64,000 bases of DNA from Halichondria panicea. Taxonomy: Eukaryota; Porifera; Demospongiae; Suberitida; Halichondriidae. The stretch is taken from contig NC_087384.1 in the NCBI RefSeq assembly GCF_963675165.1, positions 279,001 through 343,000 of the forward strand, read 5' to 3'. Below, in pieces: positions 1,388-61,751 of the stretch (position 1 is the first letter of the stretch; each line of letters starts with the position of its first letter). The notes under the pieces are model-generated. The model had not been told where the DNA came from. It did no database searches and saw only the letters and a list, made by a program, of their open reading frames with translations. Both the position numbers and the translations under genes were made by a program.

Positions 1388-3541
1388 TTAGTTCTTAATA
1401 GGGTCAATAGGGTCAGCATACAGCTGGCTTGCAAACAGAAGTATAGCCTGCACATTCTCCTCACCAGTCGGGATTATCTGGATAAAACAAACAGTGAAAT
1501 ATGAGCTCATAAAAAGAATTAGTACCTGGTCCGGAGGTAGTTCAAATCCATACTTTCCAGTGTCTCTTAGCTCAATGGTAATGCCAGCAGCTCTGTGAGG
1601 CTTCCCTGTGTTTGCTTTCATACTGTAGAACCTATAAATTGGAAGCGGTCAAACTGAAACAATATGGCGTTTGTCAAAGCGCCTACCAATCGGACGCTCC
1701 TCCGGTGGCTATATAAAGATCGGCTATCTTCTGTGCAGTATAATTTATTCCATGTACTTTCTTTATTGCCATGCTCATATCCTCACTAAGGCTTTTGAGT
1801 CGAGCATCGTCTGGGCTGTTGTCATAGCTCCAGCCTATAATTATAGTTACAACATAATTATAGTCATAATTTATACGTACGTACATTGCTTTGATGTGGT
1901 ATTCCTTACAAGTAACCTACACTTACCATAAGGCCTGAGAATGAGCTGACTGTAAGAGTGCCAGTCAATAGCACCAATGATGTCACTTTGTGCCCTGTGA
2001 TCACATTACATGTACATGGATGTATGTATAATTATCACTGAGTGTTCAATTGTCCCATTTCCAACAGTACAATAGTAGCTTGTAATTATGGAGCTCACTC
2101 GAAATATGCTACAGTGTGCTGTACTTCTGGCTCAGAGGCCGCACTTGGGCCATGGTATGTTTCACTGCAAGGATTACCGGAACTGCCACCCTGTGGCCAA
2201 GGAGAAGTGACAACATATATCTTGTAAATGGTGTACAATGTGATGGCTTACTCCATTCCAATGGTCGTCATAGTTTCTGTTCAGGTCCACTCCGATACAG
2301 CTCGAACCAGAATTAGTGTGACGGTTTTTGCGCCACAATCGATCTCCTGTCCAGGTGTACTACATGTGTATATGTGTATGCACGGTGTATACTAATTGGT
2401 GGTTTTCAGCATGTGGGTGCCGAGTGCTGGTTCTGCTCTAACTAACAATTATTAATATTATGCACTGAAAGTTCCCATAGCTCTGGACCTGGTCTGGTAT
2501 TGACATCAAAAAAGAAATTCATGCTGCTTGCTTGCATGCTTGTATGTACTGTACCGCATATCCATCCGGGTTCACGATTGGCACAAATATAAACGTCACA
2601 TTCTTCAATAAGTTGATCACCTAGAGTGAAAATAAGACAAATGAAATACATGAATAGATACATGTGTGTGAAGTGTGTGAAGTGCTACCTCTTCATCTTT
2701 GCGTTCTGCAAGGTAGTTGGCTATATACATGCAAGTAGCACCTGAAATCCATTCTCCTATATAAGAAAGAAGAGGTTGTGTACAGTTGTAAATCAATTTG
2801 TGAGATCGTGTATGGACAGGCAAACCAAAGATATTAACATGATTTAGACGCACTTACTTGCGTGAATCTGACACTGAAAGTAGATCTGCATTGCTCCAGT
2901 GCCGATGTGTACAGCAGGAAGGTCTCTTCCCTCCACTGACTTACCAATACTAGCCACAAACTTGACAATACCTGGGTTACTACTAGCAAGCTCTTCATAC
3001 CACTTCACAATGTCCTCATACTTATGCTATGGGAGAGAAAACCATTCAATTTATAGCCCATGATCAACTTATGTTCACAATCACAACAACCCCACTCACA
3101 TATTCTTCAAACCACCCTGCAGCTGTCTTATTGGACTTGCTGGTCTCCTCCATGTTCCTCTCCCACTGCTGCACTAGTGCCTCCACACTGGCATGCAAGA
3201 CAGTGCACTCTGGGAGCTGGTCTCTCATACTTTGATACAGACTGTAATGGAGTCTCACATCAGCATGCTCTCCAGTCATTGCCCACACATCTACCTCATC
3301 ATGAGACAGGAGATAGCCAATCATGTCACTCTGCTTGTCACTAAAATGAGAGAACAGTGTGATTAATATAAAGTTAACTGGTGTATATTAATGAAATTGT
3401 GAATAAGTAAATCATAAGTATATTAACTCACCATCTTATGACCAGTTGGTCATCATAAGAGACAGTTCTGCTGTAGTTGGAAGCAGAGGACCACCCAGCC
3501 AGGAAACACACCACCAACAAACACAGGGATAGCTTCTTCAT
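1388..3541 (-). CDS. Secreted M14 zinc carboxypeptidase, copy 2 (complete)
   Basis: This is a complete member of the metallocarboxypeptidase A/B family. The start is the ATG at 3541 ([17 protein letters not shown], signal peptide). It is followed by a propeptide exon (about 3100-3330) with [20 protein letters not shown]-like sequence. The catalytic exons then read [13 protein letters not shown] (zinc HxxE, split by an intron at about 2761-2857), [27 protein letters not shown] (substrate-binding Asn-Arg), [16 protein letters not shown] (third zinc His), [12 protein letters not shown] (Tyr248 equivalent) and [12 protein letters not shown] (catalytic Glu270 equivalent). It ends PIKN-stop at 1388-1390. 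All catalytic positions are present, so it should be active once processed. By alignment to the bovine pattern, the S1' pocket residue 255 is Ser rather than Ile (A type) or Asp (B type). It diverges from the GLOD4-like gene across 223 bases. Confidence 0.92.
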
Positions 3542-17500: not shown

Positions 17501-20500
17501 GTGTTCCTCACAGTGTCGACAGTAGGCACTAGAATCTCATTGAACTTTGTGTCCATCTTGTGAATGTACTCAGGTACTTTGTCCTGCCAGGGAACCCATC
17601 TACAGAAGAAATCATACTACGTATGAAAAAAAAGCTCTGTGGCGATTTTTATAAAGACTTAAGAGTACACCATAGATGGTTTTGACCACACTACAGCTAT
17701 ACACACTAAAACCTCCATTCACAGGTGGTTGTGTTTTGCATGTACATGTATACAGGAATTTGGAAATTTCATACAATCTCTTATAAGGTACCACTGACTT
17801 GCTTTGCTCCTGATCAAAGTAGTACTCGTACAGAGTTGGATAATGAGTAGGGACATCCCCTGGACCTGCCACAGCACCTTCTCCAGACACCTCATTCAAA
17901 GAGGCAAGCTTCTTCACAAAACTATCAAACTTTGTCCGACTCTCCTCAATGAGAGAAGCTCCCAGTGACCAGTAAACAGCAGCAAGGAAGATGCTCTCCA
18001 GTACAGAGGCGCCAATTCCTAGACTGGGCCCATTGCCATCCTTATCTAGGCTCTCCTCATTACGAGCAGGGAGAAGGGAGTCTAACACTGAGCACAACTG
18101 GGTCACCTAGAGGGCCATTAGACGAATAAGAGGTTGACTCCACACAGAAACAGGCTGCGTATATATACATATATAGTGTAATGCACACTTCAATATTATA
18201 GCTCAACCAATTCCTGTATTAGTGTACGGAGGTTTCATGAATAGCAATAATTGTAATCGTCAAAATTAAAGAGCCAATCGAACAATTTGCTCATCATACA
18301 CAGTCTCACAAAAACGTCAATATTCTTAGTGGGGTTTTAATTCAGAGTAGTACAGTGCTATGGACCCTATAATAATATAAGCAATCCACTGACCAGGTTG
18401 AGATTTGATAGAGGTACAATGGAGCGCAGTTTCTCCCCTTGTCTCCCATCAATGATCCCCTCCAGAATAAGGGAGATGCACGGAGGCACATACTTGTCAA
18501 ATAATTTGATAAACTCTTTCCTGTCTCCTTCGTTGACTAGGTTACTGATCCATCTCTCCCAGAACGGCTTGTAGCCAAGGTTCTTAGGGTCTACATACAC
18601 CATACCACAGCGTGAGACAGTGGCAGGACTGGCATACTGGAGATCACCAACCTGGAGTAAAAGAAAGGTAATACATCACAATAAGAATAGTACCAACCTG
18701 TAATATTTACATAGGGCAAAATTTCTACTATGTCTATACTGTAGATGTTTCAGTATTTGCAATACGCTGATGATACGTATGCAACACCATAACTGAGGGC
18801 ACAAGATACATGGGTTGATGAGTACACTACTATTACGTATGATATATACAAGTTCAATAGTCTATTTTATGGGATGTCACTAAGTATTTCTGCACACACA
18901 CCTCCACCAGGAGAGCACAGTGCTTGAGGAGTCTGATCCTCTCTCCATTAGCCAGGGTCAAGAGTCTGTTATCATCCATCACTGAGTTCATGTTCTCAAC
19001 CCACAGTGCATCCACATCACCATCAAACAAAATGTACTTTCGCTCATTTTTCTCAGTCGGTTTATTAATCTCTCTGAAGATGTTAGAGAGGAGTCCATCA
19101 GTCCAGTCTCTAGTGACAGGGTCTAGTATTCCATACAGCTCCACTACAGTGCAGGCCTTGGGGTTGAGCGTGTACATCTTGGTGCTCATACCTAGCCTGT
19201 ATAAGTATAAAGTGGACGTCTGAAAAGTATTAAACAGCTCAAACTAACGTAGCTGTAGTTGAAATATTAGTTGCATACTGTACAACTGTACCCAAAACCT
19301 AACATGAGTAGGTACTGTCGTATAGAAAGCTCTTTATAAGTGCTAACTAAACTTACATGTACAAACACAGTACAGTTTTCGGAACTTTACATACAAGTGT
19401 TCGTATTCTCTCACCTTGTTTGTGCTTGAGCGAGAGTGTTGATAACGACTGACTTGCCTCCTCCAGTGGGTCCCACCACCATGATGGTGTGACGTGTGAG
19501 CATCGTCTCATACAACTGAACCACCTTGTCAGCCTGCACAAGAAGAGCCATTCACAGAGTTACATACTACACAGCCCAATATAAACCTGTACAGTACACA
19601 TACGTAATTATACAACTGTACATTATATACAAATACGTATAGTACTAGTATAGCCATGTACTCTAGAAACAGAATTAAGACTGTGTACATGTACAATTCT
19701 TGCTGATAGGCTATACAGGTACTGCCAGATAGCAGGCAAAATATTAATTCCTTCTATTTAAGTTTCCTGTGACTAATACCACCAGTACTAACCACTGTGG
19801 GGATTGGGCCACATAAATAAACCACTCTCTACTTTGGCTGAGCCTACCCTCACCTGATGAGGGAGGAGGATGTACTTCTTCTCCACTAGAACACCCTCTA
19901 CTGCATCGTTGAACTTTGGATAACGGACGCGAGGGCAGTCCAGTCCCGGGAATAGGTCGCCAATTAGCCCCAGAAATAGAGGGACATCCTCAAACACAAA
20001 TTTGGGCAAGTTCATATCACGAAGAGCTCTCATGAGCACCATATCTTCGTTGAGATCAGGTGATCCTCTCTTTAGTTCACCGGCCATAACTAAGACAGCC
20101 TTGAGAGCTCTGAGGCCAAAGTCATAATGGTATTGACGAGACAGCTGGCCCTGGGCTAGCTTGTACAGCACTGTCATCTTCTTGGCAAGGACCTGATGGG
20201 GAGATTACAGGGATAACAAATACGTTAAATAAAGCATCTTTGTAACGACCAGAATTTTAATTCCGATGGTCAAATAACGTGATTTTCTGAAAGCTTAGAG
20301 AGAGGCCTTTCAGATAGTGCATTAAAATCAAAAGTCTATTTTCTACCTGTTTTTGACAAAATATCATAGACCATGCATACACAGAAAAATAGGAAATTCC
20401 AAATTTGGGATTCAAGCATACCATCTGAAATAGCTCCTTTTAAGCTTTCAGAAAATCATTAAATCGTTGAATTTTGACCATCAGAACTCTAGTTACAGAG

Positions 20501-23500
20501 CTAACTCCAAAATAAAGGGGACCTACAGGCTACGTATAAGCCATGATAGGAAACGTCCTAATGTACATACACAGGCAATGCTAATATCCTAGTAGTGTGA
20601 ACCACTATAGATACAGTAGCTATGGCATACCTTTGCCATGAGGAACCCCTCCGAGAAGAGCATGATCTCACAGATCTGTTGCAGATCTGGTACAATGACC
20701 ACCACTGGTCTAAAGAGAGCCTTGACACTCTCTGGTAGCTCTGTACGTCCAGCATAGCCAGGATTCATCGTGATGAAGATCCCCACTCTATTGTCCATCG
20801 TGATCTCAACTCCTTCAAACTAGTGGAAGGAGAGGAATGAAATATTTAATATACAGCAGAGTGTACCAATGGATTGGTTATACATACATTTCTAAAAGTT
20901 TATTTTAGATGGTTTTGAGGCCCCTGATCATATTAATTTTTTTACACACGCTACTTACTTGGAACTTGACGTGCTTATGGATGAGTGCGTTCTGAATGGT
21001 CTTGATTTGAGTGGAGATGACAGACAATACAGAGATGTCGATTCTGTTGAACTCATCAAAGCAACCCCATGCTCCACACTGACACAGCCCTGAGAATATC
21101 TTACCAACAGCCTGTGTGTGGGAGTACAGTGTACTTACTGTAATTATACGTACATCTAAAGTAGTAGATAGCTTACCAGCTACACTGTAAGCTGTAAGCT
21201 GTATTACGTACTGTAGTAGGGATTTAACCTCAAAAAAAGTGCAGAGCTAAGCTGTTATTGTATATGTACTGTACTTGTAGCTGGCTTTGAAATCAATGTG
21301 CTAAAAAGACAGCTATAATTATAGTGACCCTACAATATACCCACCTTGAAGTCCATACCTTCACCACAGTTGGTGACCACACAGAGCAGGCCCATAGCCT
21401 TGGCCAAGTCCTTGACAGTCTCTGTTTTGCCTGTACCAGCTGGGCCGGCTGGAGCACCACCAAGATGCATGGACAGTGCTTGTGTAATGGTGAGGTAGAT
21501 CCTATCAGTTAGAGGTGTAATCACAAGACGTCCATTGAGGCCCATGTACTCATATCCAAACCCAAACGATCCTGTGCACTGTCTCACTAAGAGCGTGTCC
21601 CTGTCCTGCTCCCAGTAGAACCTGAGCTGACTCTCCCACTCAAACTCTCTAGCCTCCATTATACTGCACACACACACAAGGGGACACAATCACAAACTGT
21701 ATGTTAACTCTTTGAACGCCCATAACTTTTGCTAATTTTGTAATAAAAAAAGCATCCATTCTGTAGCTCTAATAAAACTCTATTGTTATCTCAAATATCA
21801 ATATCAAACCTATAATACATGTAAAATCAGTAAGTCAATAGCCTTTAGTGTTGGACAAAAATTTAACATGTGCCATGTGATTATGCCTCGGTGTGCATGC
21901 GCAAGCGATGTATACGGTAGTGTGTGTTTGTGTCTGTGTGTGTGTATAAACAGTTACAGCTACTCAAGGATCAATGAAGTGCAAGTAAGAGTTTCTATAG
22001 GCTTCTAGTCATGTTTTCTTGGATTTTAATTCGTGGATTTGCAAAATAATGCTTCGTTCTCAAGTTATGCCTAGTTTTGCTTACTTGGAATGCCATTGCA
22101 GCCTTTTCAGAAGAGTCTGTAGCAAAACTTGTTCACCGAGTGTTGCTACTCTACTTAGTAGTTAGCTCTGCACTAGAATGCTAGCTATTGGTAGCTGCAA
22201 GAGTGCATGAGAAGAGAGCTGCAAGGCTCTGTTGACTTGCAGCCATTAATTTTAGACTTGCACGGTTGGCATCGATCGTTTTTAACAACAATCACGGTCG
22301 ATCATTACCCACTCTCCACTTCTTTTATTTGCAGCTGAAGTGATCCTTTACCGGTCTCTATTAGGTTGTTGCTTCTTTACTCCTTTGGTTTTTATACGTG
22401 TAGATCTATTTATTCATGTCAACAGCCGAGGGTTAGCACTTCAGTGCTCTAGTGTTATGTAGCTTTGGCATCTCCACCGAGGCATCAGCACCCGCGGTGC
22501 TTTCATTACAACTGTGCTTATATAACACACGTTGGGTTAATTAGCATCCGTATAACCCACACACATACAAATGAGTTAAAGTGATACCAGCGTGCTAAAA
22601 TAGCACGCATGTACTTACTAATGTGCCGATTTGACATTTAGTATTTAGCCGACATGTGTGTCACGATAACAGACTTGTTTTTACAGTGTATGGAAGTACC
22701 ATACACATGTGTGTCACGGTAACAGACTTGTTTTTACAATGTATGGAAGTACCACACTACACGTGTGTCACAGTAACAGACTTGTTTTTACAATGTATGG
22801 AAGTACCACACTACACGTGTGTCACAGTAACAGACTTGTTTTTACAGTGTATGGAAGTACCACACTACACGTGTGTCACGGTAACAGACTTGTTTTTACA
22901 GTGTATGGAAGTACCACACTACACGTGTGTCACAGTAACAGACTTGTTTTTACAATGTATGGAAGTACCACACTACACGTGTGTCACAGTAACAGACTTG
23001 TTTTTACGGTGTATGGAAGTACCACACTACACGTGTGTCACGGTAACAGACTTGTTTTTACGGTGTATGGAAGTACCACACTACACGTGTGTCACGGTAA
23101 CAGACTTGTTTTTACAATGTATGGAAGTACCACACTACACGTGTGTCACAGTAACAGACTTGTTTTTACAGTGTATGGAAGTACCACACTACACGTGTGT
23201 CACGGTAACAGACTTGTTTTTACGGTGTATGGAAGTACCACACTACACATGTGTCACAGTAACAGACTTGTTTTTACATATATACAAGAGTATATATAAT
23301 AATTATAAGAAAGAAACCTTGTTCATTGCAGATACTTTCACGGGGAATATACAATGTGGTTAAAATGCACATGCATGCTGTGCATATATAAGGAAGTCGT
23401 TGGGACATAATTATAGGAAAGATCAATCTGCTTCAAGAGGCCATGGAAATGATTGTGTTTTTTGCTTTACTTGCTTTGAGCTGCTCAGCTGCTGTAGCTG

Positions 23501-26500
23501 ACTCTCAGTCTCAACAAGATGACACTATGGATGCAGAATTCATTGCTCTGATGAACGTTTTCGATCAAAAAGCCAAGGAGCAGCATGATACATCCAACTC
23601 TGAAGCTGAGCTGCAAAGCCTCAATCAGAAAGCAATAGAGCAGAGTCACACATCTAACTTTGAAGCTAGGTCGCAAAGCCTCAAAGATTCACTCGCCAAG
23701 GCAATGGCGGACAGTTGCACTGGGCATTGCCGGTCAGCAAACCATGGAGATGGAGTAATAATTGGAACGGCACCATTCTGTGGCGGAAAATGTAGTGTTG
23801 ATTGTCCCCATCGTCAGTGCTACATAGGTACTCTTCACTGGTCTGACTATGGAGCGGGATGCTGGTGGGGCAACAAAGTGTGCTGCTGTGGTGAGGCAAA
23901 AATGATTTATTTCTTAACATAATTATATTATCATTATATACATGTACATGCATACAGCACACTGATAAAGTAAAGGAAAGACGAAGGACACAGTAAACTG
24001 TTACATAATGTGTTGTTTATTAGAAATCAATAAGTACAAAAGCAAACATAAGAGATTTATGTAATGGTTAGATCATGTGCATGAGATATCTATGTGTTAT
24101 AGTGTCCCAAATCCCGAGGGGACACTATAACCATAGATACCGAATGCACATGCTCTAACCCATTTAGATCCTACTTTTCATTGGCTAAACAAAACATTAC
24201 CTAAGGCAAAACATTTTTTTAAATCAAAGCCTTAGTATTATTCGTCAAGTTTTACTCATGCTGAACATGCTGAAAGAGTTCTGAACACTCAAGTTGCCCC
24301 TGTATGGATGAACTATACATGTAGTTAGCCTGAACCTATTAGCTCACCCATACCTAGAGTCTATAAACAAGCTCTCTTGCAAGAAACATTCTGCTACACC
24401 TATACACAAGCCCTACAACTATTTGTTTCTCAGTGTAGCCAAAAAGGAACAGCTTGCAAAAACTCAAGCCAATTTAAGCCAATACTCAAGTTATACAACT
24501 TGAATGCGTATAAGAAAACAAATCCCCAGAAAACCTGCAATACAATGACATTTATACAGACAATTATTATTATTTGTATTTTTTTTTTTATTGCATGCAT
24601 GCTTATAAGTTGTTGTGTACTGCATATTTAATAGCAATCATGTCAGATAGCTGTATTGTATGATCTTCACTAGTATTGTATTCAATAGCCAAAGGCATTT
24701 ATTAGACACTAGTTGATAAGATCTACATGTACATGGGAAGTACATGGGAAGTACATGGGAAAAGTGCCTCAGAGCAGGTATACTATTAGCCTCGATCGCA
24801 GGCCGCTCTTCCTCAAAGAGAGGGCCTGGTATCGACTGTTTGCGCATGCGCCACATAATCCCCAGAAACTGGGGACTCCGGATATTATCGTATAATGCTC
24901 AGTAAAACAATGACGTCACAACGAACAGAAGTGGATTGAAGAAAGTGGATAGAAGTGCGATTGTGAAGGTTTCTAGCTCCTGTGATAGCATTCTAATAGC
25001 TACCCCCTAGCCTGCTATGTTAACAAAGGACTCACAGCCTGCAACTGTGTGGACGACAATCGTCTGAACGGAGGGAAGGCTGACAATAGCCTATATGGAC
25101 AGGCCACGCCCATCTGACACTAACCTAGGTGAAAGTCTACATGTAGACTCTATTAGAAGAAATAGCTGCTGTAACCAAACGTACAGCTCTGTCTCTAGTT
25201 AGCTAGCTAGCTATATAGCTCTGTGTATGTAGTATTCTTTGTGTGTATATGTTATTCAGGATATTTTTCGGGGTTTAATGGGAAACATTACGGGGAAATT
25301 ATCCAATAATTTTGCGCATGCGCAAACAGTCAGTAGCAGGCCTCCTTTTTGAGGCCTTGTGAAGGAGGCTAGTATACTATGGGACTTAGTATACCTAGTA
25401 TTCCGTTGTCAAGTAATTGTATTGTAGTCAAGCGATTTGCGCAAGTGCACTAATATCTAAATGAGTTAGACACTGTGTCTAACTATTATATAGAGCATGT
25501 TGTCAGGTGCTCTATTAGAAATAGAGCACATAGCAACATAAGCAAATACACTCAAGTGGGATCTAAGAGTATAATATTATACAGGTATCATATGATATGG
25601 TACAATCCGACACTTATAGATCTATGGCAAGTATGTCATGCCATGCATGCAGTGTCATGAACAATGTTTGTTGAGAATATTTTAAACAAATTGCAGGTAC
25701 ATGCTCTGCTGCATATATATATCCAACTAGAAAAACATTTGCAATGTGAAAAATTGCTAGGATTGGCCAGGGGAAACAAGCACCCACGTTGGGTCAATTA
25801 GCACCCATATAACCCACACACATACACATGAGTTAAAGTGATACCAGCGTGCTAAAATAGGACGCATGTACTCACTAATGTGCCGATTTGACATTTAGTA
25901 TTTAGCCGACATGTGTGTCACGGTAACAGACTTGTTTTTACAATGTATGGAAGTACCACACTACACGTGTGTCACGGTAACAGACTTGTTTTTACAATGT
26001 ATGGAAGTATCACACTACACGTGTGTCACGGTAACAGACTTGTTTTTACAGTGTATGGAAGTACCACACTACACGTGTGTCACGGTAACAGACTTGTTTT
26101 TACAGTGTATGGAAGTACCACACTACACGTGTGTCACGGTAACAGACTTGTTTTTACAGTGTATGGAAGTACCACACTACACGTGTGTCACGGTAACAGA
26201 CTTGTTTTTACAGTGTATGGAAGTACCACACTACACGTGTGTCACGGTAACAGACTTGTTTTTACAGTGTATGGAAGTATCACACTACACGTGTGTCACG
26301 GTAACAGACTTGTTTTTACAGTGTATGGAAGTGCCACACTACACGTGTGTCACGGTAACAGACTTGTTTTTACAATGTATGGAAGTACCACACTACACGT
26401 GTGTCACGGTAACAGACTTGTTTTTACAATGTATGGAAGTACCACACTACACGTGTGTCACGGTAACAGACTTGTTTTTACAGTGATATATATATACAAG

Positions 26501-29500
26501 AGTATATATAATAATTATAAGAAAGAAACCTTGTTCATTGCAGATACTTTCACGGGGAATATACAATGTGGTTAAAATGCACATGCATGCAGTGCATATA
26601 TAAGGAAGTCGTTGGGACATAATTATAGGAAAGATCAATCTGCTTCAAGAGGCCATGGAAATGATTGTGTTTTTTGCTTTGCTTGCTTTGAGCTGCTCAG
26701 CTGCTGTAGCTGACTCTCAGTCTCAACAAGATGACACTATGGATGCAGAATTCATTGATCTGATGAACGTTTTCGATCAAAAAGCCAAGGAGCAGCATGA
26801 TACATCCAACTCTGAAGCTGAGCTGCAAAGCCTCAATCAGAAAGCAATAGAGCAGAGTCACACATCTAACTTTGAAGCTAGGTCGCAAAGCCTCAAAGAT
26901 TCACTCGCCATGGCAATGGCGGCCAGTTGCAGTGGGCATTGCCAGTCAGCAAACCATGGAAATGGAAGAATAATTGGAACGGCACCATCCTGTAACGGAA
27001 AATGTAGTAGGGATTGTCCCAATCATCAGTGCTACATAGGTACTCTTCACTGGTCTGACTATGGATATGGATGCTGGTGGGGCAACAAAGTGTGCTGCTG
27101 TGGTGAGGCAAAAATGATTTATTTCTTAACATAATTATATACATGCATACATCACAGATGCTGCTGTGGTGAGGCAAAAATGATTTATTTCTTAACATAA
27201 TTATATTATCATTATATACATGTACATGCATACAGCACACTGATAAAGTAAAGGAAAGACGAAGGACACAGTAAACTGTTACATAATGTGTTGTTTATTG
27301 AAATCAATGCTTATTATAAGTACAAAAGCAAACATAAGAGATTTATGCAATGGTTAGATCATGTGCATGAGATATCTATGTGTTATCTAGTGTCCCAAAT
27401 CCCGAGGGGACACTGTAACCATAGATACCGAATGCACATGCTCTAACCCATTTAGATCCTACTTTTCATTGGCTAAACAAAACATTACCTAAGGCAAAAC
27501 ATTTTTTTAAATCAAAGCCTTAGTATTATTCGTCAAGTATTACTCATGCTGAACATGCTGAAAGAGTTCTGAACACTCAAGTTGCCCCTGTATGGATGAA
27601 CTATACATGTAGTTAGCCTGAACCTATTAGCTCACCCATACCTAGAGTCTATAAACAAGCTCTCTTGCAAGAAACATTCTGCTACACCTACCCAAGCCTA
27701 CAACTATTTGTTTCTCAGTGTAGCTAAAAAGGAACAGCTTGCAAAAACTCAAGCCAATTCAAGCCAATACTCAAGTTATACAACTTGAATGCGTATAAGA
27801 AAACAAATCCCCAGAAAACCTGCAATACAATGACATTTATACAGACAATTATTATTATTTGTATTTTTTTTTATTGCATGCATGCTTATAAGTTGTTGTG
27901 TACTGCATATTTGATAGCAATCATGTCAGATAGCTGTATTGTATGATCTTCACTAGTATTGTATTCAATAGCCAAAGGCATTTATTAGATACTAGTTGAT
28001 AAGATCTACATGTACATGGGAAGTACATGGGAAGTACATGGGAAAAGTGCCTCAGAGCAGGTATACTATTAGCCTCGATCCCAGGCCGCTCTTCCTCGAA
28101 GAGAGGGCCTGGTATCGACTGTTTGCGCATGCGCCACATAATCCCCAGAAACTGGGAACTCCGGATATTATCGTATAATGCTCAGTAAAACAATGACGTC
28201 ACAACGAACAGAAGTGGATTGAAGAAAGTGGATAGAAGTGCGATTGTGAAGGTTTTTAGCTCCTGTGATAGCATTCTAATAGCTACCCCCTAGCCTGCTA
28301 TGTTAACAAAGAACTCACAGCCTGCAACCGTGTGGACGACAATCGTCTGAACGGAGGGAAGGCTGACAATAGCCTGTATGGACAGGCCACGCCCATCTGA
28401 CACTAACCTTGGTGAAAGTCTACATGTAGACTCTATTTAGAAGAAATAGCTGCTGTAACCAAACGTACAGCTCTGTCTCTAGCTAGCTAGCTAGCTATAT
28501 AGCTCTGTGTATGTAGTATTCTTTGTGTGTATATGTTATTCAGGATATTTTTCGGGGTTTAATGGGAAACATTACGAGGAAATTATCCAATAATTTTGCG
28601 CATGCGCAAACAGTCAGTAGCAGGCCTCCTTTTTGAGGCCTTGTGAAGGAGGCTAGTATTTATATACTATGGGACTTAGTATACCTAGTATTCCGTTGTC
28701 AAGTAATTGTATTGTAGTCAAGCGATTTGCGCAAGCGCACTAATATCTAAATGAGTTAGACACTGTGTCTATATAGAGCATGTTGTCAGGTGCTCTATTA
28801 GAAATAGAGCACATAGCAACATAAGCAAATACACTCAAGTGGGATCTAAGAGTATAATATTATACAGGTATCATATGATATGGTACAATCTGACACTTAT
28901 AGATCTATGGCAAGTATGTCATGCATGCATGCAGTGTCATGAACAATGTTTGTTGAGAATATTTTAAACAAATTGCAGGTACATGCTCTGCTGCATATAT
29001 ATATCCGACTAGAAAAACATTTGCAATGTGAAAAATTGCTAGGATTGGCCAGGGGAAACACCAAAAAGCATGGGAACAAGAAATCAGACGAGAACATAAC
29101 TGCAATCTGTTACATGCAGCAAAATTAAAGTTGATCGTGACAATGTGTGTGTAAAAGCTAGGTTATGTAGCTTTTGCACCTCCACCGAAGCATCAGCACT
29201 CGCAGGGTGCTTTCATTATGTAAGTAAGTATAGGAGGAGCTACAGAAAGCAAGTTTTCCTTTTGAAATCAGACCCTGTATGCACACATCCACACACACAC
29301 TCACACACCCACACACTCACACACCCACACCCACACATACACACATCCCCACACATTATAGAGGCTTACCTGTCCCTCACAAATCTATCAATGATGTCTC
29401 TATTGTGCACGTCCACAATGAGCACACTGTTGAACTTCTTACGATCGTTCTTACTCAATTGAGAGCGAACCTGTACACACAAGTACAGAGAATAAGAACA

Positions 29501-31425
29501 CAACCACACACAAGCACATGCAGTACTCTTGAATCAAAAGTTTGCAAAATGTACATGCACATGAACGGCACCTATATACATGCGGGTAATTTTTGGGGGG
29601 CAAAATATTCGTGGATGAGCAATATTGAGTCATTTCGTGGATAATATTTTCGTGGTTGCTGCTTGCACTGCAGGTAAAGGTCGGCAAGGTCGCTTCATTT
29701 GTGGGTCATGGTCAGACCTTCAGCCACGAAAACCATGAATATTTTGCCCCATGAAAATTACCCTCTATACAGGTAGTTCATACTATATTTGAAACGATGC
29801 ACGGTAATCATTGAACTAATAGCCTCATTTATACTGCACATAATAAAATTATTATATTATACAATTATACAGCTTGCAGAATCTGAACAGCATGCGTGGG
29901 GTATACATGCATGGGGTATACATGCATGGGGTATACATGCATGGGGTATACATGCATGGGGTATACATGCATGGGGTATACATGCATGGGGTATACATGC
30001 GTGAGGTATACATGCGTGAGGTATACATGCGTGAGGTATACATGCATGGGGTACACATGCATGGGGTACACATGCATGGGGTGTACCTACCTGTACGACA
30101 AGATCATCAATCTGTGTGTGCAGTTTCTTGGCGTAGTTTTTCATGGCCATCTTGTCTCCCTTCTTGACCTTACTGAATACATCTTCTACCTCCCAGGTCC
30201 ACCACACCTGGTTGGTGGCCAGCACCACCATGCCCTGGTAGTCGTACATCCACTCCACTCTGATGGAGGAGGAGGGGCAGTGTACAAATGGTAAAATGGA
30301 AGCAATGTACCTCTTAACTAGAATTTTTACACTACTTGACGTTCTACGAACAACACTGTAGCTACTATAGCTACAGAAACTACAATATACATTTTTATGC
30401 TGTGCTACGTACAGCAAGCATTATAATTGTCAAGTTCATCAGAACACACACACACACACACCCACCCACACACACCTTGATTTCTTGTGAGTATAGGTGA
30501 AGATGGCTTCCTTTGTGATGAGCTGGTTGGTCCGCCTCATCTCATTCAGCACCTACAGTTATACAGTGTTGCAAGACCATCTCCATACGTAACTCAATAA
30601 GTCAGTATTCAATCAACTACCAACCAACCCAGTATTCTTCCTATAATTATATACACTGTATATACATACCTGAGTCATCCAGTCCTCTACCTTGCCCTCT
30701 GCAACCACTCCTTGTCTATACTCCATCATCTCCCCCTCACCAGAGATCATGGCATTGGCCAGTGGTTCACCAGACGAGCCCTGATCAAACCGAAGCTTGG
30801 CTATGTTGTCAAACATCTGTGGAGACAAATAGAACAAAATAAACATAACACACACTAAGCGATTTGCAATACAAATTAATGTTCTTTGATATCTATCGTA
30901 CAACGAGAAAATTTGGCTATTTGGCGAATTTTACACAATGACATTGCCAAAGTAGCCACACACTTGAGACGTCAAATAAAAAAAACAGTTTTAAATGGCT
31001 CATTTACCAACTATAAATACTTGCCAAATTTTCCCATTATACGGTACACACTATTATATAGACTGACCTTGATCATGTGCTCCTGTACACAGGTGCACTC
31101 GTGGCTACCTAGTATAGAGAGCAGCTCTTCATCAGATATGAAGAAGAATCGAGGGAAGGCATTTCTTTTGGAGTCAAGATAATCGTTAAGGCTCTTTTGA
31201 CATTTCTCCAAACCACTGCTGATTGATTCTAAGTCTTGTAGTCTGTTCGGAGCATGGCAAGCATCTAGGACAAGCGGGTTTTTGTTTGTGTCTGACATAA
31301 TTTTCTTGAAAAGTTTGTCGATATTGTCAAATTTCTTTGCTTCCTCTGGTAGCTGGGCCCTGATGTCCCCACCGATGAAGATGGACTCGAGATACATCCA
31401 CTTGCGTTGGACCACCATCCACACC

Positions 31426-46500: not shown

Positions 46501-49500
46501 AGCTCAAATCTCTCAGCAGATCCCTCAAACGCAGCCATGGCTTGGTAAAGTGTGAGAGATTGCTTCTCCGGGTCCTTTGCTTGTCCATATCTACGAGTGG
46601 TACGATCACCAGACCCCAACCTGTGTACCACGAGAAGACAGAGAAGTTGAACAATGCAGTACATTCTGGGTAAAACTATTAGCTAAAAATGTTTGGTATA
46701 AAGAGTACAAATATTATGTGTGGGCCTATAAAAACAATGTAATCGAGCTTACCACTTCGGCTTAATTGTAGGAACAATTCTCGTACTCTTTCTGCTGACG
46801 AAATTCCTGCGAATCTGCCCACAAAAATATCATTATTTGAAATACAAGCAGCGTGCTGTATGTGTGTGTGTACTCATACAAGCAAGGTGTTGTATCTGTG
46901 TGTGTGTACTCACCTTCTTGACGTAGACAGTGGCCTGCCTCTTGTCAAACCTCTTGAACATAGCCCCAGGCACATATCCCTCACCACCATTATACCTGCA
47001 TGCACACAGACATACAAGTACAGTCATGTGCAGTTTTGCTATAGTTATAACCTTAAATGTACACATGTACATCAAATTGTAAGTTTTCTCACAAAACCAT
47101 TTTGGGAATGACTTCCAAGAACGTTTTGCCATGTTCATGCAGTTACATATCTCACTAATTGCTTAACTTCCTTAATTCATACAAGTGTGGGTTTCCATGG
47201 CACGGCTGTGTGTGTGGTGTGTGGTCAAGTTTCATTTGGCAAAGGAGGTGGTTTGATCATGCACACACATTGTTGAGAATGGGATGTTTTTGGCTGAAGC
47301 CTGTCAATGTGTGTACTCCTACAAGGCCACCTGTTGCATGAACTTTGACAGGGGGAGGGGGTTTGAGAGCTAGGACACGCAGCCATGCATGCAGCATTAT
47401 ACTTACTTCCTTTAGATAGGAAGGAGATTTTTTTTAATAGGATATGACCTTTGCTGTGTGTACGTAGACCGTGAGAGAACATCACTTGGACAGGGAGAGT
47501 ATAAACTCTTGGGTTTAAAAATATACCCCCTTACAGCACATGTCGGCTCAAATCTCATACACAATATTAATTCTTGGTTTTTAACGGGCGAGCATAAATT
47601 ATTAGCTTACTTAGTTATCAAAAGTATGCAAGTCAGTTTGTCATTATTGTCACTATTTCCTCACCTGACTAACCACCACCCGTCCACGTGTTTCTTAATC
47701 ACCTTCACGACAGCCCCTCGAACAAAACTGAGCTCATCTTCTCGAGAGGATTGGTATTTGGAGATACTAATGTACCGTGCCCCCTCTGCAATGGAGTATA
47801 ATAATGACGGACGGAAGTCACATGACATACAATATATCATCGTTGTTGTTATTTTATGCACATGCATTATTGAAGCTAGTCCCTTCCATATTGTCATGAT
47901 CATATCTTACAGACAAAGTCCAGGAAGGTAGTACTCACTACGGAGCAAACTCATTTGCTAAGAGTAAAGTCACCATTTGCTCCAGTAGGAAATTATTATA
48001 GTCATATGATATAGACCCTGTAGCAATTATGCCCCATCCCCCCCACACCACACACCCACACACTCCACACCACACTCACGTCTTTCTGGGGCTATAAGTC
48101 TCTCGTTCTCCTGTGCCTCGCTCTGAAGGTCCTCCGGGTCAACTGGCACAAGGAAAGAGGCAGGAGCCCACCCAATGGACCCGCCATTGTCCACCATCCA
48201 CCAACCTGTGAGGGGTGTGACAAGTGTGTAAAGTGTGTGAGGCTCGTATATATTAGGGCATGTTATTATTAGCTAGCAAATGAGATCAGAACCAGTAGCA
48301 ATGAGATAATATTGATAGTATGCACCAGTCAACCATTCCTCTAGAACACACAGTAGGCTGGTATCAAAGCCAACAGTGTTTACTAGCAAGGCACCTGAGA
48401 GGCTTCTGTGGGGAAGCAGCTGCATTTGTAAATTTTGCAATGCAAAAAGTCTTTGCTCAACCACATTCATTTACAGTTCTTAGCAGAGTACTCTGACATG
48501 TAGCTAATTCAATTGAGAATAATAAGATTATGGTCACGGTCTATCGACACCTCCCCCATAGCTAATTGGATAAGAATTCAAGTGTGTCTGCGAGCGAGAG
48601 TGGTATGTGTGTGTGGTGGGTGTACTCTTACCGCCGGGATCTTTCTTCATGACCTGAACTATTGCTCCCTCGGGGAAGCTGAACTTTGTCTTCTTGTCCG
48701 AGTAGTTGGCCACAGAGAGATAGGAGCGGAGAGACACGGGACCACTGATGGTTGAGTCCTCATCTGAAGGTGTGGTGTGATATTGAAATGCTATACCTTT
48801 GTTACTATACCTTTGTTATCATTATATGAAGTCTCACATGTGGCTACATATAGAACTTCTTTACTATAATGAAAACTCACTTGCAATAACACGGTTGCTT
48901 TTTTTGCCTTTACTCTTGTGCCTGCATTGACAAATTAACAGGTACATAATAATATTATATACTCATAATTCATCTTACAGCCAGCTGCAAGCAATGGAGC
49001 ATTCAACAAACACACGACTGTATAAGGTTTGATGCATCTACAGTAGTTAGCACTCCTTAATTGTGCCAAGCCAGCAGATGTTTGGCAATGAGATAGCCTT
49101 ATAAAGTAGATATTGAATAGTGTTATGAACTGTATCAAAGGTATGTGTGTGTATACACCACTGAATTGGTATGGTGAAGCAACCCAGTCAATTTGCAAAA
49201 CTTTGGGAGAGTTTTCCGGTATTCAATATTTACTAAGCAACAAATTTGCTATTATTATAATTACTTTGATTTAGGTGATCCTGGTACAGAGATGTCTGAT
49301 GCTTTCAAGGAGAAGAACTCGCTGACAAGATCACACTTGACAATGGAGGCAGGCAGTCCGGGAATCTCTTTGATATACGAACTGAGTAGCTTCTCGAACG
49401 ATCGATCATCGCTAATGGCTCTCTGTATACCAAATATAGTTTGCTTGAGGGGACAGTCTGGAATCACCCTCTCACTCTTCTTGAAATAGCCGGCCTCGAC

Positions 49501-59988: not shown

Positions 59989-61751
<1,763 letters not shown>

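Follow-up and report, generated by a model that had tools for sequence, protein, structure and literature searches.

Two described systems come closest to the locus analyzed here. The CRP-I proteins of mussels combine a conserved signal peptide and propeptide with a mature cysteine-rich region that is described as being under positive selection (PMC10138031). Membership in the CS-alpha-beta superfamily is defined by the cysteine-stabilised helix (CSH) motif together with a third disulfide bond (PMC5116183). The present analysis concerns a window of 64,000 nucleotides from the sponge Halichondria panicea (C8:279001-343000 of a genome assembly of 131 Mb in 39 contigs; C8 is NC_087384.1) and two genes within it, A and B. 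They are recent tandem duplicates and look like genes for secreted precursors, each with a ten-cysteine mature domain. Replacement changes between them are concentrated in that domain, in excess of what the flanking DNA would predict, and all the cysteines are kept. The best reading, which we hold with moderate confidence, is an amino-acid diversification of a probably secreted mature domain, with possible recombination in B.

The two genes and their diverged parts are the following (all positions without a contig name are those of the window):

23443..23922, plus strand: gene A, a single open frame of 159 amino acids with a signal-like start (residues ~1-19), a pro region (~20-85) and the ten-cysteine domain (92-149).
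26655..27134, plus strand: gene B, a single open frame of 159 amino acids with the layout of A and 12 replacements compared with A in codons 86-138.
23698..23856, plus strand: diverged patch in A, codons 86-138, from the codon comparison with B.
26910..27068, plus strand: diverged patch in B, codons 86-138, from the codon comparison with A.

The first-pass annotation of this stretch had compared A and B by eye, and its counts proved to be accurate. It had reported two differences in codons 1-85, which are a silent change in L9 and the replacement A35D (2 of 255 bases). Downstream, it had counted 18 changed bases in 12 codons and no silent change; these are codons 86, 90, 93, 97, 103, 105, 112, 114, 119, 123, 124, and 138, and all of them are replacements. 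Codons 139-160 are identical. As it had also stated, all ten domain cysteines are the same in both copies and the noncoding flanks are nearly identical (32 of 2042 aligned bases differ between duplication units 1 and 2, arrays excluded). The density of differences is thus far higher in codons 86-149 than in the noncoding flank (18/192 versus 32/2042 bases, Fisher p = 4.7e-8). The densest 160 columns contain 18 of the 52 differences, compared with a maximum of 15 in 20,000 permutations, and the cluster persists when neighboring changes are merged (12 of 38 events, p = 1.5e-4).

Four of the 12 changed codons carry two or three changed bases, together 10 of the 18 base changes. These four are replacements almost by necessity, and therefore the complete lack of silent changes is, taken alone, weak evidence. 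Its simulated probability is 0.08-0.13 when only the eight single-base codons are considered, 0.02-0.05 when 12 codon events are counted, and 0.003-0.011 if the 18 bases are treated as independent. The firm signal in A and B is the strong excess of replacements over the flank: codons 86-152 contain 12 changed codons, while 2.5 are expected at the flank rate (p = 1.3e-5, counted as 12 events). Nei-Gojobori counting for the same codons yields 16.8 replacement steps and 1.2 silent steps, the latter assigned to the multi-base codons, with a replacement divergence (dN) of 0.113 and a silent divergence (dS) of 0.031. The 12 sites are also variable across the protein family described below. In an alignment of 51 of the 70 retrieved family proteins, which included the close relatives P0001 and P0002, their mean entropy was 2.56, and that of randomly drawn non-cysteine positions was 1.91 +/- 0.27 (p = 0.006).

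Two further intact copies allow a comparison over a longer time span. They are located about 4.8 Mb from A and B, where they form a tandem duplication of their own, about 9.4 kb in size (region C8:5058001-5084000, pieces L007-L009):

C8:5075032: intact paralogue C.
C8:5065644: intact paralogue D.

The compared frames of C and D differ at 2 bases. The extra codon 142 of both was removed ahead of the codon comparisons, and one residue of C was dropped for the comparison with the flanks and with P0001. By counting, A/B versus C/D have a dN of 0.17-0.21, a dS of 0.07-0.12, and a dN/dS ratio (omega) of 1.8-2.5 in codons 86-152, and a dN of 0.08-0.09, a dS of 0.06-0.08, and an omega of 1.0-1.4 in codons 1-85. 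Maximum likelihood (ML) codon fits of the MG94 type were made with our own implementation, not with codeml, on the tree ((A,B),(C,D)), that is, on four sequences of which two are nearly identical. The omega of codons 86-152 was 4.1 when the silent rate was shared with codons 1-85 (p = 2e-4) and 3.1 when these codons were fitted alone (p = 0.034). When the pro region and the domain have one silent rate in common, the A/B branches have an omega of 23 (p = 1e-6), which is reduced to 11 (p = 0.0014) when the four multi-base codons are removed. Between A and C, 24 replacements are found, versus 13.5 expected at the rate of the 5' flank (p = 0.006).

These values bear on the explanation that constraint was relaxed or mutation was locally elevated, so that tolerant loops took up a few multi-base events in one or both copies. 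The accumulation of 10 of the 18 base changes in four codons fits this explanation, and so do the strong difference of the 3' flank between A/B and C/D and the omega of about 1 in codons 1-85 of A/B versus C/D, which indicates that the protein is not under strong overall constraint. However, relaxation yields the neutral rate at most, and the A-B replacements are about fivefold above the flank rate when codon events are counted. The A/B branch test is significant even when the multi-base codons are left out, and the A-C comparison also shows an excess. We regard relaxation or local mutation as improbable.

The first-pass annotation had proposed diversifying selection, as in defense or venom-type peptides, and had named an unremarkable dN/dS among further copies as the result that would speak against it. 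The comparisons within A/B and with C/D both support replacement-rich change in the mature domain, and omega is indeed elevated for A/B versus C/D; a function in defense or in recognition may be suggested by this pattern. Several results weigh against diversification of the domain. C and D differ in codons 86-152 by one silent change and no replacement, although their flanks have diverged to a similar extent as those of A and B (39 mismatches in a match of 4539 columns and 47 in a match of 2927 columns), and thus an omega of 3 does not apply throughout. The internal branch has a marginal omega of 2.3 (p = 0.06), or 2.5 (p = 0.04) minus the multi-base codons. Codons 1-85 alone have an ML omega of 1.9, not significantly different from 1 (likelihood ratio test statistic 1.4), and because the pro region is also above 1, its contrast to the domain is less sharp than by counting. 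The 5' flank of A/B differs from that of C/D at 10-11 of 130 bases, the 3' flank, which aligns poorly, at 36-41 of 133. The neutral yardstick for this pair is thereby uncertain; the divergent 3' flank weakens the older comparison, and measured against it the domain would not be fast. The data set is thin, multi-base codons inflate the omega tests, and recombination breaks the assumption of a single tree.

The possible contribution of recombination is brought up by an additional difference between the two genes:

27093..27158, plus strand: 66-bp insertion in B, a possible recombination scar (placement by the aligner; it can slide to the right by up to 48 bases).

The insertion, which the first-pass annotation had missed, is present only in B, is missing from A, C, and D, and begins about 25 bases past the last change of the patch. 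It is composed of 48 bp identical to the 3' end of the gene, which is thereby repeated, and an 18-bp tail, ACATGCATACATCACAGA, between the repeats. The tail is similar, though not identical, to the 3' flank, which reads ACATGCATACAGCACACTGA in A; a stretch of about 17 bases is missing, and about four changes seem to be needed according to our own reading of the alignment. Because the second copy of the 3' flank in B is identical to A across 141 bases, the first tail looks older or foreign. The insertion might be the scar of a recombination event by which the patch was imported, and its position adjoining the patch favors recombination of some kind.

Recombination might even account for the cluster on its own. 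The patch of B, from codon 86 or before through the 18-bp tail, would then derive from a paralogue or allele that had diverged, and the conversion or template switching that brought it in would have left the 66-bp partial repeat; the cluster would reflect the age of the donor instead of selection. The insertion and its diverged tail next to an unchanged flank are in agreement with this, and C and D have no such patch. A public protein of the A/B type, P0001, adds a further hint. In codons 86-149, A differs from P0001 at 8 of 64 residues and from B at 12, and in codons 1-85 the order is reversed (6 of 79 versus 1 of 85). The incongruence is not significant (Fisher p = 0.077) and thus no more than suggestive. 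With C as an outgroup, 11 of the 18 base changes in the patch fall on the side of B, 5 on the side of A, and 2 are unresolved. The changes on the A side speak against recombination alone, although three of the five (in codons 86 and 119) give residues that are common to A and P0001. Also against it, the 48 bp ahead of the tail are identical to A.

A donor with the patch of B was not found among the matches listed for the 131-Mb assembly, which was searched with protein B, two DNA stretches spanning the patches of A and of B, and four family proteins, only the best candidates being scored. The only copies among these matches are A, B, C, D, and three apparently decayed or partial copies, of which one is frame-shifted with its third cysteine replaced and one has a stop:

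C14:5722520-5722663: decayed or partial family copy.
C14:5694211-5694300: decayed or partial family copy.
C16:1944640-1944878 (approximate limits): decayed or partial family copy.

The fragment at C14 5722520 was rejected as a donor, since its frame seems to be shifted and the third cysteine is missing. C and D were rejected as well: downstream of base 255 of the frame they differ from A or B at 36-43 positions, and they share no identical patch with them. Gene conversion from a third paralogue, the main alternative of the first-pass annotation, thus lacks an identical source among these matches in the sponge's own genome and gains some support from the insertion beside the patch. A diverged donor should also have brought silent changes with it. 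At the tract's own divergence about 3.9 silent changes are expected and no silently changed codon is present (p = 0.02), and therefore replacements appear to have outpaced silent changes, be it before or after the duplication. An import would alter the timing of the replacements, and silent changes would still be scarce (omega ~3 in codons 86-152 of the four sequences, p = 0.03). Although the data set is small, the excess of replacements over silent changes appears to hold in both cases. Recombination alone is a minority possibility in our estimate.

If the mature domain has diversified with possible recombination in B, the cysteine scaffold would have been kept constant and the residues between the cysteines driven to change, so that a stable disulfide scaffold presents variable residues. 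Such a domain would most plausibly bind a varying target, e.g., a microbe, a competitor, a symbiont, or a partner molecule, as defense or recognition proteins do. Several of the changes in B may have been acquired jointly, through recombination with a diverged copy that has since been lost or was not sampled; this would represent the transfer of already diversified sequence.

The domain of A and B has the framework C-x3-C-x16-C-x3-C-x3-C-x4-C-x13-C-x6-CCC and defines what is called here the unnamed ten-cysteine IGTAPFC domain family. Three protein searches, the last of which scored the best 7992 word-sharing candidates, retrieved at least 70 proteins. Among the matches listed, 63 of 70 have the ten-cysteine framework ending in CCC, near variants included, with 77 framework domains in total and 13 proteins that have more than one. 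The commonest spacing, 3,16,3,3,4,13,6 and then CCC (22 of the 77 domains), is exactly that of A and B, which therefore belong to the family; C and D have 7 in place of 6 in the last gap. The framework is not found in P0018, P0025, P0026, P0048, P0068, P0069, and P0070. Three of these (P0026, P0069, and P0070) are weaker matches, mainly to the pattern GTAP.C...G.KVLC, with fewer cysteines, and hint at a wider superfamily. In 27 aligned sequences, the ten cysteines, I107, G108, A110, P111, D135-Y136-G137, G143, and K145 show little or no variation.

The only organism named among the matches listed is the haptophyte Diacronema lutheri (P0037 and P0038), and P0037 has the strict framework twice. 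The other matches belong to contigs or to sets labeled mmetsp, eukprot, and merc, which we take to be plankton and protist sequence sets. The contig matches closest to A-D are presumably sponge. The domain occurs two or three times per protein in a haptophyte and in several proteins from contigs or plankton sets (P0037, P0027-P0036, P0039, P0006, and P0060), and in P0060 a PAN domain (PAN_1) lies beside the ten-cysteine domain and outside of it. Contigs of bacteria, archaea, and viruses yielded no close relative in a pattern search with B. No Pfam model scored above its cut-off over the domain in 18 scanned proteins (A, B, and 16 retrieved ones), NCBIfam gave no match for the four proteins scanned (B, P0006, P0012, and P0020), and four family motif strings retrieved nothing from the open-license PMC literature. 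By its sequence, the domain belongs to a family that has no name in the libraries searched and that occurs in a sponge and an alga; its distribution between sponge and algae is patchy.

Genes A and B are embedded in a larger gene. The minus strand of the window encodes a dynein heavy chain with Pfam matches to DHC_N1, DHC_N2, AAA_6, MT, AAA_9, and AAA_lid_11, and A and B are situated between its AAA_6 and DHC_N2 exons, antisense to it. The features of this region are as follows:

19788..20177, minus strand: dynein heavy-chain exon (AAA_6, PF12774, E 6.8e-36), flanking the nested pair A/B on one side.
31011..31424, minus strand: dynein heavy-chain exon (DHC_N2, PF08393, E 1.3e-53), flanking the pair on the other side.
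22540..25780, plus strand: tandem duplication unit 1 with gene A and a 54-bp array (left edge approximate, by eye).
25790..29062, plus strand: tandem duplication unit 2 with gene B and a 54-bp array (left edge approximate, by eye).
22652-23278: 54-bp tandem array upstream of A, 11.6 copies.
25909-26485: 54-bp tandem array upstream of B, 10.7 copies.
23385..23391, plus strand: TATA-like box TATATAA upstream of gene A (by eye).
26597..26603, plus strand: TATA-like box TATATAA upstream of gene B (by eye).

Additional dynein-like frames, recognized by eye at ~21385-21660 and ~30100-30310, close in on the pair from both sides, so A and B may lie in a single intron. The duplication comprises about 3.2-3.3 kb, with a start spacing of 3212-3290. 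Such a tandem duplication with 54-bp arrays is a hard context for assembly, and two haplotypes or paralogues could have been mis-joined or mis-called here. However, both frames are open, every cysteine is kept, and the changed sites are the variable positions of the family, which makes an assembly artefact very improbable. The C/D region also has an array with a 54-bp period (L008:923-1588), the consensus of which looks unrelated to those of A and B. Elsewhere in the window, the frames 47458-47931 and 60379-60762 are alike and both contain APRTKLSSSSREDWYLEILMYR, which suggests a dispersed repeat. A degenerate pattern of the silicatein active site had one match in the genome, and the reversed control had none; the sequence surrounding this site, GDCGASYAFSAMGALEG, has silicatein alpha as its best match among solved structures (6zq3, E 2.5e-11), followed by cathepsins. 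This result by itself makes a demosponge the most likely host.

The TATATAA box, identified by eye, is kept upstream of all four paralogues. The limits of the signal and pro regions of A and B were read by eye, and the products would be secreted and cleaved if this reading is correct. The 3' end may be spliced. By eye, the pro region consists of imperfect repeats of about 20 residues each, gene C has a 60-bp repeat (L008:7149-7273), and helices are predicted with low confidence for the pro region of B. The net charge (K+R-D-E) of the 58-residue domain is +1 in A, +2 in B, and -3 in C, and thus the charges do not point to a simple cationic antimicrobial function of every copy. The model of the whole protein has a mean pLDDT (predicted local distance difference test) of 61, and the model of the domain alone a pLDDT of 80 and a pTM (predicted template modeling score) of 0.63. 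In the latter, C-x3-C is predicted to lie in a helix and CCC in the last strand; a second, short helix and further short strands are also predicted. In Foldseek searches with the models all matches had E values of at least 3.2 and were treated as chance, so that no convincing relative emerged from the PDB.

Sponges live with dense microbial communities. To our knowledge, sequences are available for only a few effector families of sponges, and there is little evidence of selection on them. Among literature titles matching the topic, none concerned a secreted cysteine-rich sponge family with paralogues under positive selection. If the pattern holds across individuals, the locus would offer a handle on what sponges recognize or fight. 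The presence of the domain in a sponge and a haptophyte, unmatched in the Pfam and NCBIfam scans made, raises the question of its origin, and the insertion in B is a test case for the combination of selection and conversion in young duplicates. A wider scenario, which we put forward tentatively and think unlikely, is that an old extracellular ten-cysteine domain common to demosponges and marine microalgae has become a diversifying recognition or defense module in sponges. Its paralogues would swap diverged mature-domain cassettes via short recombination tracts, and selection together with conversion would lead to new specificities.

The spacings C-x3-C, G-x-C, and C-x-C mark the CS-alpha-beta superfamily. 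In the domain studied here, C-x3-C falls within a predicted helix, and a G-x-C is present together with C-x-C/CCC at the last strand. In contrast to CS-alpha-beta members, the domain model has a second helix and additional strands in between. No convincing similarity in sequence or fold to solved members was found, which a model with a pLDDT of 80 may miss. In small size and number of cysteines, the domain is like the defensive CS-alpha-beta peptides, including macins and the sponge ASABF, which have 6-10 cysteines (PMC5116183). The proteins P0037 and P0038 of D. lutheri and the plankton proteins share the same domain according to profile searches, but differ from A and B by having several domains in one protein.

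The evolutionary pattern itself is already known from other animals. CRP-I of Mytilus likewise represents a marine invertebrate family with conserved signal and pro regions and a diverse mature cysteine-rich region (PMC10138031). The mussel family differs by an array of six cysteines, knottin-like and variably spaced, and by genes that are present in some individuals and absent from others (PMC10138031). A-D, in contrast, have ten cysteines in another framework, and all four of these copies in the one genome are intact. A and B display a replacement rate in the mature domain above both the silent and the flank rate with the cysteines kept, and C and D do not. The likeness to CRP-I lies in how the domain evolves and not in membership in that family.

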